Origin: Caldifarciminota bacterium
GTDB lineage: Bacteria > WOR-3 > Hydrothermia > WGAB01
Assembly (NCBI GenBank): GCA_015489295.1
Contig: WGAB01000277.1
Span: forward strand, 1 to 8,353
Direction: 5' to 3'
DNA length: 8,353 nt
Part shown: piece by piece, positions 1 through 3,951 of the stretch
Layout of the letters: each line of letters starts with the position of its first letter
Position numbering within the stretch: the stretch's first letter is position 1
Made by a program: the position numbers and the translations under genes
The notes under the pieces: generated by a model
Seen by the model: the letters and a program-made list of their open reading frames with translations, nothing else
What the model was told of the DNA's origin: nothing
Databases searched by the model: none

Positions 1-194
1 CGTGAAAACCCCCACTCCCATTTGATTGGGATTGCGACCGCAACGCGTCAAGGAATTGCTCCCCCCAGAATGCAGGCGTGAAAACCCCCACTCCCATTTG
101 ATTGGGATTGCGACTTATAATTCTTTGTCCTTTGGGGAAATTGCAATATCGCAGGCGTGAAAACCCCCCACTCCCATTTGATTGGGATTGCGAG
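1..194 (+). CRISPR. CRISPR array, leader-distal end (3 repeats, 2 spacers visible)
   Basis: Two identical 38-nt repeats lie at 1-38 and 77-114, and a third at 156-194 has one extra C in the C-run and a final G instead of C. They contain a short stem (TCCCA, loop TTTGAT, TGGGA) and end in ATTGCGAC. That is the 8-nt 5' crRNA handle known from Thermus thermophilus type III systems, so I infer transcription on the + strand, with the leader and older part of the array to the left of the window. Spacers are 38 and 41 nt; the second is AT-rich compared with its surroundings, as expected for foreign DNA. Both spacers end in GCAGG, so the true repeat may be 43 nt with spacers of 33 and 36 nt. The altered third repeat fits a degenerate terminal repeat. 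No cas gene is visible, so the subtype cannot be assigned. Confidence 0.85.
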
Positions 195-451
195 TTATAC
201 CCCACGGCCTCGCTTACGCGATGCCGCGGGGCCCCGCCGAGATGCGTCAGCAGATCGGTGGGGTGGGAGTCCCCCACTCCCATTTGATTGGGATTGCGAG
301 GAGCACCCCACGGCCTCGCTGTCGTGATGCCGCGGGGTCCCCGCCGGACTGCGAAGCAGGGCGGTGGGGTGGGAGTCCCCCACTCCCATTGAACTGGGAT
401 TGCGGGTTATGCCCCACGGCCTCGCTGGTGCGATGCCGCGGGGCCCCGCCG
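165..451 (+). repeat. 106-bp tandem repeats carrying the 3' part of the CRISPR repeat
   Basis: Two full units (165-270 and 271-376) and a partial third (377 to about 451) have an exact 106-bp period. Each starts with CCCCCACTCCCA and continues through the 3' end of the CRISPR repeat; the handle reads ATTGCGAG in the first two units and ATTGCGGG in the third. The rest of the unit is a conserved 76-nt segment. It holds a near-palindrome, CCCCACGGCCTCGC against GCGATGCCGCGGGG (12 of 14 positions pair), and ends in GGTGGGGTGGGAGT. The TGGGAGT at each unit end and the ACTCCCA of the next unit form a perfect 7-bp inverted repeat with a CCCCC loop. Variation is concentrated in the 4-5 nt after the handle and in the loop of the near-palindrome. 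The open frames across this block lie in both strands, are Pro/Arg-rich and look like artefacts of GC-rich repeats. Function is unknown. Confidence 0.8.
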
Positions 452-515
452 GGCCACACGTGCCTGTTCCTCTGGAAGTTCCTGCTGGGGCGGTGAGGAT
501 TCAGCCAGTTTTATG

Positions 516-554
516 GTCCCTGGAGTAAAAACCTTTACTCGTTTGCGCAGGGAC
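516..554. other. nested inverted repeat / stem-loop
   Basis: An inner perfect 18-nt inverted repeat, GAGTAAA-AACC-TTTACTC (523-540), is flanked by an outer perfect 7-bp pair, GTCCCTG (516-522) and CAGGGAC (548-554). A 7-nt bulge at 541-547 separates the two on one side. No T-run follows, so it is a poor intrinsic terminator. It lies upstream of the proposed promoter of the small membrane-protein gene. An operator or the structured 3' end of a transcript from the CRISPR side are both possible. The rest of 452-610 shows nothing else recognisable apart from that promoter. Confidence 0.6.
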
Positions 555-575
555 AGAGATGGCGGTGACGATGCC

Positions 576-604
576 TTGCAGCGCCTTCCCGCTCTCCTTA
601 TGTT
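576..604 (+). promoter_or_regulatory. possible promoter for the small membrane-protein gene
   Basis: TTGCAG (576-581), a 17-nt spacer and TATGTT (599-604) resemble -35 and -10 boxes. Only 6 nt separate the -10 from the ATG at 611, so the transcript would start at or next to the start codon. The box matches are modest (3/6 and 4/6), so this rests mainly on spacing and on the same layout at other genes here. Confidence 0.35.
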
Positions 605-610
605 TTAGGT

Positions 611-871
611 ATGCTGTGGGTAGGGCTTGGGGTTGTCGCGCTGGTCCTCCTTCATCTCATCCACAGAGAGATCCAGCGCCGAAACTTTCGCGGGGCAAAA
701 CAGCTGTCCCTGGTTCTCATCCTGATCTTGATCCCCTTTGCCCTGTTCAGCATTTTCTGGCTTGTCCTTTTCCTGATGGCCATGTTCAGGGTGTACGGCG
801 TGATCGGCCTGGGGATCACCCTCTTGTTCATCGCCGGTTTCGTCAAACTGGTGCTCCGCTTTGCCTCGTAG
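611..871 (+). CDS. small integral membrane protein, unknown function
   Basis: This 86-residue protein is not a family I recognise. It has a hydrophobic N-terminal segment (about 2-16), a basic stretch with IHREIQRRNFRG (about 17-28), a long hydrophobic segment (about 32-58) and a last one (about 62-83), so roughly three membrane helices. Codon use (CTG, ATC, GCC, GTC rich) agrees with neighbouring genes, which supports it being real. No good ribosome binding site precedes the ATG; AGG sits only one base away. A TATGTT box 6 nt upstream suggests a leaderless message. It stands alone between the CRISPR-side repeats and a convergent minus-strand gene. Nothing in it identifies a toxin, transporter or Cas accessory protein. 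A false gene is possible but less likely given the clean codon pattern. Confidence 0.6.
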   Translation: MLWVGLGVVALVLLHLIHREIQRRNFRGAKQLSLVLILILIPFALFSIFWLVLFLMAMFRVYGVIGLGITLLFIAGFVKLVLRFAS

Positions 872-989
872 CCGTATAAAACACACTCCCATCCACGGAG
901 AAATGAGATTCACCCCCGCCCCAATGCAGAGAAGTAAAACGGCGGAGTAGAAGCATCCCGGAGCCAGGGACGGGTAGGAAGAGGTGAGG

Positions 990-1265
990 TCACGGAGAGC
1001 CGGGAGTATTGCGGAGGCGGAAGGTGACCCGGGCGCCGTCCAGGTGCTCCTCCACGGCAACGATCTCGGTTTCCACGCCGAAATCCTTAAGGAGCCACAC
1101 CAGGTCTTCGTACCAGTCGTAGGCGCCGCAGGAGCGGCAAAAGGTGCCGGTGAACCGCACCTGGAAGGTGTCCGGCCCCAGGTGTACCACCTGCGCCCGG
1201 GCCTCGGGCTCCCGGTACCGGTTGTACTCGACGACCGCGCGTTTCAGGTGTTCCTGCCAGCGCAT
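990..1265 (-). CDS. hypothetical protein with a CxxC motif
   Basis: This is a 91-residue soluble protein that I do not recognise. It opens with a charged helix (MRWQEHLKRAVVEYNRYRE, 1-19), followed by alternating strand-like segments. The centre reads FTGTFCRSCGAYDWYEDL, with Cys43 and Cys46 as the only cysteines. A single CxxC could bind metal as a dimer or act in redox, but neither is shown. I chose the ATG at 1265. An in-frame TTG at 1301 would add 12 residues (MGPDPLGLTLQA), but that TTG coincides with a possible -35 box, and a possible -10 (TACCCT) lies 7 nt before the ATG. Neither start has a convincing ribosome binding site. The gene is transcribed divergently from mutS. About 120 bases between its stop and the membrane-protein gene show no gene or clear terminator. 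Confidence 0.65.
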   Translation of the reverse strand: MRWQEHLKRAVVEYNRYREPEARAQVVHLGPDTFQVRFTGTFCRSCGAYDWYEDLVWLLKDFGVETEIVAVEEHLDGARVTFRLRNTPGSP

Positions 1266-1272
1266 GGCCTGT

Positions 1273-1301
1273 AGGGTAAGGCCCAGGGGGTCAGGCCCCA
1301 A
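1273..1301 (-). promoter_or_regulatory. weak candidate promoter for the CxxC protein gene
   Basis: On the minus strand TTGGGG (1301-1296), 17 nt and TACCCT (1278-1273) precede the ATG at 1265 by 7 nt. Each box matches consensus at only 3 of 6 positions. The correct spacing and the leaderless layout shared with other genes in the window are the only support. Confidence 0.25.
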
Positions 1302-1392
1302 GGATCCCGGAGTTTCGGCGATGCGCTTTCCAGAGAGCCCCGTGGCGCCCCGGCAGGGGCATCCATTCCGTCGGTGCCCGGGGCCACCCGAG

Positions 1393-1398
1393 TATAAT
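1393..1398 (+). promoter_or_regulatory. mutS -10 element (TATAAT), near-leaderless
   Basis: A perfect TATAAT ends 9 nt before the mutS ATG at 1408. Transcription would begin about 0-4 nt before the start codon, leaving no room for a ribosome binding site, and none is present. No good -35 box is seen at 16-18 nt upstream. This promoter would drive the whole mutS-mreB-mreC operon. Confidence 0.6.
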
Positions 1399-1407
1399 TA
1401 ACCGACC

Positions 1408-3951
1408 ATGGCGGAGTCCCCCATCCTGCGGCAGTACCGCGAGATCAAGAGCCGATACCGGGACGAACTCCTCCTGTTCCGGATGGGGGACTTTTACGAA
1501 CTCTTCTTCGACGATGCCGAAGTCGCCGCCCGGGTGCTGGGGATCACTCTGACCTCCAAACCTCTGAGCAAGAACCAGCGGGTGCCCATGGCCGGCGTGC
1601 CCGTGCGGGCCGCCGATACCTACATCGCCCGGCTCCTGAAGGCCGGGTACCGGGTGGCCATCTGCGAGCAGATGGAAGATGAGCCACCCAAGGGCCGCGG
1701 GCTCATGCGCCGGGAGGTGGTAGAGGTCATCACCCCCGGCACCATCTTGGACCCTGCGCTCCTGGACGACAAGAATTTCCAGTTCATTGCCGCGGTGAAC
1801 CCCGCGGAGGACCGCTGGGGGGTGGCCCTCCTGGACCTGAGTACCGCCGACTTCTTCGTGTTTGAGGCCCCGCCCGAGCGGGCCCGGGAGGAAATGGAAA
1901 AACGGGGGGTGGTGGAACTCATCCTGCCCAAGGATGCCGAGGTGCCGGAACTGCGGGCGGCAGCGGTGTATCCCCTGGAAGAGTGGCACTTCGACCCCGA
2001 AACCGCCCGGCAGGCCCTGATGGAGCACTTCCAGGTGGCTTCGCTGAGGGCCTTTGAGGTGGAGCACCTGCCCCGGGCCCTGGGCGCGGCCCTGGCCCTT
2101 CTGGAGTACCTGCGCGACAAAAAGCCCGGCATGCTCCAGCACCTCCGGAACCTGCGCCCGCTGCGGCTCCAGGAGACCCTGTACCTGGACACCGCCACCC
2201 TGAAGAACCTGGAGGTGCTGGAACCCATCCACGAGGGCGGCCTCTCCCTGCTTTCGGTACTCGACGAAACCCTGACCCCCATGGGGGCCCGATTCCTGCG
2301 GGAGGCCCTGATCGCCCCCCTTCTGGACCTTCGGCAGATCCGGCTGCGGCTCCATCGGATCCAGGCGCTGCTGGAGGACCGCGAACTCCACGAGACCCTC
2401 CGCACCCTGCTCAAGGACATGGGCGATATCGAGCGGATGGTTTCCCGGTTTTCCGCGCGCAAGGCTGGCCCCCGCGAGGCCCGGAAGCTCGCCACAGCCC
2501 TCCGCCGCTTTGAGGACCTCCGGCAGGTTTTGGCTCCCCACGATCTCTTTGCGCCGCTCCTGCAACAGGCGCCCAACCTGGAGGAACTGGCCGAAGCGAT
2601 TGAGCACCGCATCGTGGAGAATCCGCCGGCCAGTGTGCGTGACGGCGGCTTCATCCGGCCCGAGGTGTCCGAGGAGCTGGCCGAACTTTTAGACCTGGCG
2701 CACCACGGCAAGACCCGCATCCTGGCCCTGGAACAGCGGGAACGCGAACGCACGGGCATCGCGTCCCTGAAGGTGGGGTACAACCATGTGCTGGGCTACT
2801 ACATTGAAGTGACCAAGGCCAACCTGGACCGGGTGCCCGAGGACTACATCCGCAAGCAAACCCTGACCAACGCCGAGCGGTTTTACACGCCGGAACTCAA
2901 GGAACTGGAGGCCCGCATCCTTTCGGCCGAGGAGCGGGCCCGGCGGCTGGAACTGGAACTCTGGGAGGAGCTTCGCCGCCGGGTGGTGGACCGGGCCCAG
3001 GCCCTCAAGGCCCTGGCCGCGGTGGTGGCCGAGGTGGACTTCCTGCAGTCCCAGGCCCTGGTGGCCCGCAAGCGGCGGTACACCATGCCCGAGGTGGCCG
3101 ACGATGGCACCCTGCGCATCCGAGAAGGCCGCCACCCCATGGTGGAGGTGATGATCGACGAACCCTTCGTGCCCAACGACACCGCTATGGACCTGCATCA
3201 CAACCGGATTTTCATTCTCACCGGCCCGAACATGTCGGGCAAGAGCACCTTTTTGCGGCAGGTGGCCCTCATCACCCTGATGGCCCAGATGGGCACCTTC
3301 GTGCCCGCCGCCGAGGCCCATATCGGCCTGGTGGACCGCATTTTCACCCGCATCGGGGCCTCCGACGACCTGGCCCGGGGGGTTTCCACCTTTATGGCCG
3401 AAATGATCGAAACCGCCAACATCCTGCGGAATGCCACCCAGAAGAGCCTGGTGATCCTGGACGAGGTGGGCCGCGGCACCTCCACCTTCGATGGTCTCGC
3501 CATCGCCTGGGCCGTGGTAGAGTACCTGCTGAAGCGTGTGGGCGCCAAGACCCTGTTCGCCACCCATTACCACCAGCTTTCAAAACTCGGGAAAATGTAT
3601 CCAGCCGTACGGAACTTCACCACCAAGGTGAAGGAATGGGAGGGCAGGGTAATTTTTCTTCGCAAGGTGGTACCCGGAGAGGCCGACCGCAGCTACGGCA
3701 TCCATGTGGCCCAATTGGCCGGGATCCCCGAGGAGGTGGTCCAGCGGGCCCGGGAAATCCAGGAGGACATTGAACGGGAGGGCACCATCCGTACCCGGCT
3801 CACCCAGCTCGACCTGTTCCAGCCGCAGCGGCCCGCTTCGGAGGCGGCCGAGAGGGTGCTGCAGCGCTTGAAATCGCTGGATTTGGATGGCCTGAGCCCC
3901 CGGGATGCTTTAAACTTGCTCTACGAACTCAAGAAGGAAGTGGAGTCCTGA
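1408..3951 (+). CDS. mutS: DNA mismatch repair protein MutS
   Basis: The 847-residue protein has full MutS1 length. MutS dimers bind mispaired or looped DNA and, with ATP, recruit MutL to start repair. The N-terminal mismatch-binding domain has the Phe-X-Glu wedge in GDFYELF (Phe29, Glu31). Connector, core and clamp regions follow. The ATPase shows Walker A TGPNMSGKST (605-614, Lys612), Walker B LVILDE with Asp685-Glu686, then GRGTSTFDG and the FATHYH switch histidines. QLDLF at 800-804 fits the bacterial beta-clamp binding pentapeptide. The tail (SPRDALNLLYELKKEV) is the usual C-terminal helical dimer region. An in-frame TAA at 1399-1401 makes the ATG at 1408 the only ATG start. The stop overlaps the mreB start (TGATG), so the genes are co-transcribed and probably translationally coupled. 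No mutL is in the window. The MutS1 rather than MutS2 assignment rests on the FxE motif and the lack of a Smr domain. Confidence 0.98.
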   Translation: MAESPILRQYREIKSRYRDELLLFRMGDFYELFFDDAEVAARVLGITLTSKPLSKNQRVPMAGVPVRAADTYIARLLKAGYRVAICEQMEDEPPKGRGLMRREVVEVITPGTILDPALLDDKNFQFIAAVNPAEDRWGVALLDLSTADFFVFEAPPERAREEMEKRGVVELILPKDAEVPELRAAAVYPLEEWHFDPETARQALMEHFQVASLRAFEVEHLPRALGAALALLEYLRDKKPGMLQHLRNLRPLRLQETLYLDTATLKNLEVLEPIHEGGLSLLSVLDETLTPMGARFLREALIAPLLDLRQIRLRLHRIQALLEDRELHETLRTLLKDMGDIERMVSRFSARKAGPREARKLATALRRFEDLRQVLAPHDLFAPLLQQAPNLEELAEAIEHRIVENPPASVRDGGFIRPEVSEELAELLDLAHHGKTRILALEQRERERTGIASLKVGYNHVLGYYIEVTKANLDRVPEDYIRKQTLTNAERFYTPELKELEARILSAEERARRLELELWEELRRRVVDRAQALKALAAVVAEVDFLQSQALVARKRRYTMPEVADDGTLRIREGRHPMVEVMIDEPFVPNDTAMDLHHNRIFILTGPNMSGKSTFLRQVALITLMAQMGTFVPAAEAHIGLVDRIFTRIGASDDLARGVSTFMAEMIETANILRNATQKSLVILDEVGRGTSTFDGLAIAWAVVEYLLKRVGAKTLFATHYHQLSKLGKMYPAVRNFTTKVKEWEGRVIFLRKVVPGEADRSYGIHVAQLAGIPEEVVQRAREIQEDIEREGTIRTRLTQLDLFQPQRPASEAAERVLQRLKSLDLDGLSPRDALNLLYELKKEVES

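Follow-up and report, generated by a model that had tools for sequence, protein, structure and literature searches.

A REP doublet of a dispersed WOR-3 family, probably amplified in tandem, at the trailer of a CRISPR array

The window, that is, the whole stretch of 8,353 nucleotides analysed here (contig WGAB01000277.1), opens inside a CRISPR array, and the tandem block at the end of this array is very probably an amplified REP doublet of the REPIN or BIME type, belonging to a REP family of WOR-3 genomes and lodged at the array's trailer. This reading builds on the tandem units themselves, on the match of their structured part to the REP family, on the dispersal of that family and on the occurrence of the same layout at two CRISPR arrays of a second genome, G047. 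Throughout, “WOR-3 genomes” denotes the 147 genomes of the phylum of G001 (candidate division WOR-3 bacterium), which is the closest relative found: the MutS encoded downstream of the block (1408-3951) is 89% identical to that of G001 (locus L001).

Three CRISPR repeats are present at the left end of the window. The first copy (2..38, plus strand, 37 nt) is possibly longer at its 5' end, where it is cut by the window edge. The second (78..114, plus) has the same sequence, whereas the third (157..194, plus), which is the terminal repeat, carries an inserted C and has its final base changed from C to G. The motif GCAGGC stands ahead of both the second and the terminal repeat (71-77 and 151-157), and the true CRISPR repeat may therefore be a few nucleotides longer at its 5' end. 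The array appears to run toward the block, which would place its leader outside the window. The repeat was not found in any of the 147 WOR-3 genomes with up to three mismatches allowed, and in viral contigs neither the repeat core nor exact copies of the cores of the two window spacers were matched (0 in each case). Also a distant blastn search of window 1-620 against phages and plasmids gave no match. Between the array and mutS, two small open reading frames (611-868, plus, and 990-1301, minus) had no Pfam match at 0.001.

The block consists of three units. Unit 1 (165..270, plus) comprises the 30 nt of the terminal repeat, a REP doublet and GGGAGT; unit 2 (271..376, plus) comprises a 5'-truncated repeat (271-300), a REP doublet and again GGGAGT; and unit 3 (377..498, plus), which is decayed and whose end was read by eye, comprises a 5'-truncated repeat (377-406) and a REP doublet. 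A repeat search placed three copies at 143, 249 and 355, with start-to-start spacings of 106 and 106, and TRF reported the interval 165-452 with a period of 106, 2.7 copies, 85% matches, 2% indels and a score of 423. Both searches bear out an earlier sequence-only reading, in which three units at a spacing of 106 bp were proposed to begin with the 3' portion of the CRISPR repeat. That reading had also stressed that the period is exact, which is correct for the spacing (106/106) but partly accidental, since two 1-nt indels between units 1 and 2, one of a T at the centre of the doublet and one of a loop base, compensate each other. Likewise, the units are real but the block, formerly delimited as 165..451, was drawn too short: unit 3 has both a left palindrome and right arms, and the repeated feature spans roughly 157 to 498.

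Units 2 and 3 each contain the 3'-terminal 30 nt of the CRISPR repeat. Over this length, the terminal repeat and unit 2 depart from the first two copies (2-38 and 78-114) at the last base alone (C to G), which confirms that the altered handle ATTGCGAG of the terminal repeat recurs in unit 2. The proposal that the repeat end was amplified along with the structured segment, the altered handle being common to the terminal repeat and unit 2, is supported. The description of the third unit as more diverged stands only in part: it carries ATTGCGGG and differs from the repeats at five positions of the 30-nt part, but it is not clearly odd, as the identity over the first 67 nt is 59/67 between units 1 and 3, compared to 60/67 between units 1 and 2 and 55/67 between units 2 and 3. 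At the unit junction GGGGTGGGAGT/CCCCCACTCC (260-280), an inverted repeat involving the 5' region of the CRISPR repeat was observed, which is possibly a trace of the duplication event.

The GC-rich 76-nt segment of the units is a pair of head-to-head REP-type palindromes and is not derived from the CRISPR repeat. A covariance model, R1, was built from 45 family sequences, none of them from the window. Under default filters R1 identified four REPs in the strand order -,+,-,+, and no further match up to E 10: the left and right REPs of unit 1 (199..231, minus, 28.1 bits, E 9.6e-06; 232..264, plus, 35.8 bits, E 1.2e-07) and those of unit 2 (305..337, minus, 23.3 bits, E 1.5e-04; 339..370, plus, 40.4 bits, E 8.5e-09). 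With the filters off, a weak left REP of unit 3, absent under default filters, was added (411..443, minus, 16.2 bits, E 0.0086), and the remaining matches had E-values of 0.13 or worse. The right REP of unit 3 (444..498, plus), read by eye, is broken, an enlarged loop separating its arms (444-450 and 489-498), and was matched by R1 neither under default filters nor with the filters off. Units 1 and 2 thus each have a minus-strand REP on the left and a plus-strand REP on the right, a doublet in inverse orientation that is reiterated in tandem with flanking DNA. The two REPs of each of these doublets have a GCGGGG[T]CCCCGC centre in common, so that each REP's tag falls in the stem of its partner. 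Only the right REP of unit 2, out of five recognisable REPs in the window, has a perfect GGGGT tag, followed by the canonical TGCGAAGCA core; the tag of the left REP of unit 2 reads GGGGA, and the REPs of unit 1 overlap without the T.

When window 195-376 was searched against the WOR-3 genomes at E 0.01, short matches to either half were obtained in 9 of the 147, and the hairpin form read at those places was CGGGGT-CCCCGC-N5-TGCGNAGCA-N5-GTGGGGT. The exact pattern CCCCGC-N5-TGCGNAGCA-N5-GTGGGGT occurred at 66 places in 9/147 genomes, compared to 0 places for the reversed-pattern control in the same genomes. The family is thus dispersed among WOR-3 genomes. The stem of its hairpin covaries strongly: at the five free stem positions, pairing was observed in 171 of 225 cells across 45 distinct copies, compared to 113.5 +/- 5.5 in shuffles (maximum 129, n=2000). 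The covariation score was 0.254 versus 0.096 and was reached by 0/500 shuffles. Of five measures, three lay above all 500 shuffles (the percentage of pairing, the cells with changes on both sides and this score), whereas two did not, the count of pairs with both sides changed (98/500) and that of pair types (158/500); nine of the 14 pairs were fixed by the search pattern. Such covariation is expected from recognition between REP and RAYT and does not speak for a CRISPR RNA. Among the copies listed, GGGGT immediately precedes the hairpin in 34 of the 36 distinct copies with flanks, two of which are from viral contigs, and conservation falls off outside the element. An exact pattern of the left palindrome gave 0 matches in viral contigs and 0 in genome contigs, which says little as this pattern required bases absent from the wider family. 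Two IMG/VR contigs showed one REP-pattern match each, without an array (L182:7677-7708 and L183:679-710), and the family, or a look-alike, hence extends beyond the WOR-3 genomes searched.

At E 0.001, R1 matched 12/147 WOR-3 genomes, and in four of them (G057, G058, G059 and G061) 42-45 of the 49 scored candidates each were R1 matches. No REP match was obtained in G001. Among 33 genomes that were reached via other loci (32 outside the WOR-3 set and G025 inside it; 150 candidates per genome scored) there was no match at 0.001, nor was there one at 1e-4 in any of 400 genomes belonging to the same phylum as the Anaerolineales genome G172 (18 candidates per genome scored). With candidate lists capped in this way, such zeros prove little by themselves, although the same model did match 12/147 WOR-3 genomes. 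Also 15 of 80 MutS loci searched with R1 gave 0 matches up to E 1. Mobilisation of the family may be linked to PF01797, the RAYT-type transposase, which was found in 7/9 genomes with the exact pattern. A search of ten genomes yielded 17 PF01797 matches at 12 loci, with none in G047, G061 and G001. All seven proteins tested, from seven of these 12 loci (L131, L132, L135, L136 and L137 fell outside the sample), scored above the NCBIfam cut-off for REP_Tyr_transpos, the REP-associated tyrosine transposase. Six REP matches of R1, one of which is truncated at the edge of its locus, occurred at 5 of the 12 loci.

With the amplified doublet as the preferred reading, the block would have arisen in two stages. 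At first, a REP doublet would have come to adjoin the terminal CRISPR repeat on its 3' (trailer) side, brought there either by a RAYT transposase acting in trans or together with the CRISPR locus by horizontal transfer. As no PF01797 match was obtained in G001 and G047, the machinery that moves REPs was not seen there, and arrival with a transferred CRISPR locus or by means of a transposase lost since is possible. Tandem amplification by slippage or recombination would then have taken in about 30 nt of flank on the upstream side, which correspond to the 3' portion of the CRISPR repeat, and 6 nt on the downstream side (GGGAGT), after which the units would have decayed. The truncated repeats probably have no role of their own.

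The same layout was encountered in G047, in which two exact-pattern REPs are located on a contig, C19, that also contains cas1. This contig has two CRISPR arrays, the repeat of which (CTCTGAATAAACTCCTTGCCTAAAAAGGGTTAAGAC) is unrelated to that of the window, and homologues of the segment beside other arrays, which the sequence-only reading had envisaged, thus do exist. The leaders of the two arrays are alike and lie at the end opposite the REPs. At each trailer the order is the repeat minus its last base, a minus-strand REP, 27 nt, a plus-strand REP, GTGGTATTT and a 5'-truncated repeat, the terminal repeat ending in ..AAGA followed by ATGG or ATAG. As in the window, the truncated repeat of one array is immediately followed by a further doublet; in the other (array 2), one ordinary spacer plus a full repeat intervene. 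The two arrays (L172:1413-2520 and L172:18920 to L173:771), with the same repeat and similar leaders, lie in opposite orientation and flank a block of open reading frames including cas1, which by eye resembles a type III (Cmr-like) set.

The concentration of G047 REPs at CRISPR ends suggests more than plain chance insertion. It might be explained by a preference or better persistence of REPs at CRISPR trailers, either because a RAYT, or some other activity, has the hairpin or handle of the repeat as its target, or because the cluster serves as an end block, e.g., an RNA 3' end or insulator; we consider this unlikely on the whole, though it is the alternative to be weighed most seriously. All four R1 matches in G047 (threshold E 0.1, with 150 out of 432 candidates scored; two of the four had their sequence included in the set of 45 from which R1 was built) are located at these two trailers, where a regular expression found eight REPs. 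In both hosts the penultimate base is the last one of the repeat before the REP side starts (..GCGA/G.. in the window, ..AAGA/ATGG in G047), and the repeat that comes next is missing its 5' part. G047 MutS is only 48% identical to that of the window, which indicates distant hosts. Furthermore, inward REP pairs in which both tags are exact and 2-32 nt separate the elements, a pattern that the overlapping doublet of the window itself would not match, occurred in 2/147 genomes, at two places in G047, both at arrays, and at one in G062; the reversed-pattern control occurred at one place, in G001. The G062 pair (contig C37, L196 ~1501-1528) lies just past a frame that by eye resembles an outer-membrane receptor.

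Against such a preference, the two G047 arrays have leader and trailer sequence in common and may therefore represent one event. Seven arrays met in stretches around cas1, which do not amount to a census, had no adjoining REP: three on contig C1 of G047, two in the REP-rich G058 and two in G001. None of the 31 REP loci outside G047 that were obtained by the exact-pattern and R1 searches (L100-L107, L109-L128, L141-L143) holds a CRISPR array, a two-copy 18-mer in L126 being the most that was found, and ten further loci of G013, G046 and G093 had no array. By regular expression, 27 of the 31 loci have at most one REP; L115 and L116 have groups on the same strand, and L111 and L117 inverse pairs with wide gaps. 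Tandem units of the window type were not seen at these 31 loci in REP-rich genomes. With respect to an end block, terminator-like sites (GC stem plus T run) were not in excess, with 2 in window 1-1420 compared to a shuffle mean of 1.8, and one of these, at 260-280, is located in the tandem block. A more specific version, to which we give rather little credence, would have trailers as a preferred landing or survival site, where a single-strand transposase recognises the repeat hairpin or an exposed strand and places REPs after the penultimate base, and amplification then builds units of pseudo-repeat and REP.

The sequence-only reading had considered a repeat-derived non-coding RNA family under selection for RNA structure, which is very improbable given the present data. 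The structured part is a dispersed REP and not derived from the repeat, and 0/31 REP loci outside G047 have an array. Units 1 and 2 do fold strongly, with z-scores of -5.7 and -3.4 in a shuffle test of the 76-nt parts, and this is what any REP pair gives; the corresponding stretch of unit 3 folds no better than shuffles (z -0.6). The stem of the repeat is unaltered in unit 3 despite a changed loop, which had been taken as a hint of selection. All four differences between units 3 and 1 in the 30-nt repeat part fall outside the 10 stem positions, but this is a weak sign, as the probability of all four missing the stem by chance is P = 0.177, or 0.44 if they represent two events. The conservation of the CRISPR stem hence gives no evidence of selection on RNA. 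A search of window 1-1500 against Rfam also gave no match up to E 1.

Equally, there is scant reason to believe that the REP doublet is an oversized spacer captured by the CRISPR adaptation machinery. The doublet of array 2 in G047, which stands between a repeat and a truncated repeat and is then followed by an ordinary spacer, would fit this proposal. CRISPR integration should duplicate the whole repeat, but the repeat following the doublet lacks 7-11 nt at its 5' end in units 2 and 3 of the window and once in each G047 array, and the doublet lies at the trailer and not at the leader. The identification of the doublet as a CRISPR spacer was accordingly rejected: an intact repeat on both sides was not encountered, and the following repeats lack their 5' part. 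An artefact of assembly or binning has next to no probability, because the copies in the window differ by substitutions as well as indels and the same layout occurs in the independent genome G047.

The amplified doublet has close parallels among known REP systems. Clusters of REPINs in ordered arrangement were reportedly described by Bertels and Rainey. In Pseudomonas fluorescens SBW25, ordered clusters are tandem repeats including the flanks, with a unit of f1, a REPIN and a shorter f2 (PMC3116915), and tandem reiteration together with flanking DNA is described for REP singletons or dimers (PMC3733652). The window shares with the SBW25 clusters the tandem arrangement of f1, REP doublet and shorter f2, but in the window the 3' portion of the CRISPR repeat takes the place of f1 and GGGAGT that of f2, and the REPs belong to a different sequence family (PMC3116915). 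As in the BIMEs and the GTAG- and CGTC-tagged REPs (PMC3733652, PMC8266576), the elements are short palindromes with a 5' tag, tandem inverse pairs occur, and RAYT/TnpAREP is present in most carriers; unlike in those families, the tag of the WOR-3 family is GGGGT. The term “WOR-3” was absent, by a term search, from the main text of the RepRanger survey (PMC12306157). Mobile DNA lodged in arrays is also known from IS and MITE insertions in CRISPR repeats, two examples of which are single elements inside a repeat with duplications of 4-5 bp (PMC4852346); in the present cases, REP doublets instead stand after the terminal repeat and have 25-30 nt of repeat in tandem. Among the papers listed in literature searches, no title or abstract opening reported REPs at CRISPR ends.

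Taken together, the results point to a recurrent fusion between a hairpin family of the mobile type and the end of a CRISPR array, in two distant hosts and with unrelated repeats. Should the association fail, “degenerate repeats with odd long spacers” at array ends can be duplications of mobile elements and not RNA genes. If, in turn, a census upholds the association, CRISPR trailers would be a niche for REPs, and RAYT-type enzymes may use repeat hairpins. In the more specific version given rather little credence above, the units of pseudo-repeat and REP, if transcribed and cut at the retained handles, would yield crRNA-like molecules bearing REPs that match the genome's own REPs.
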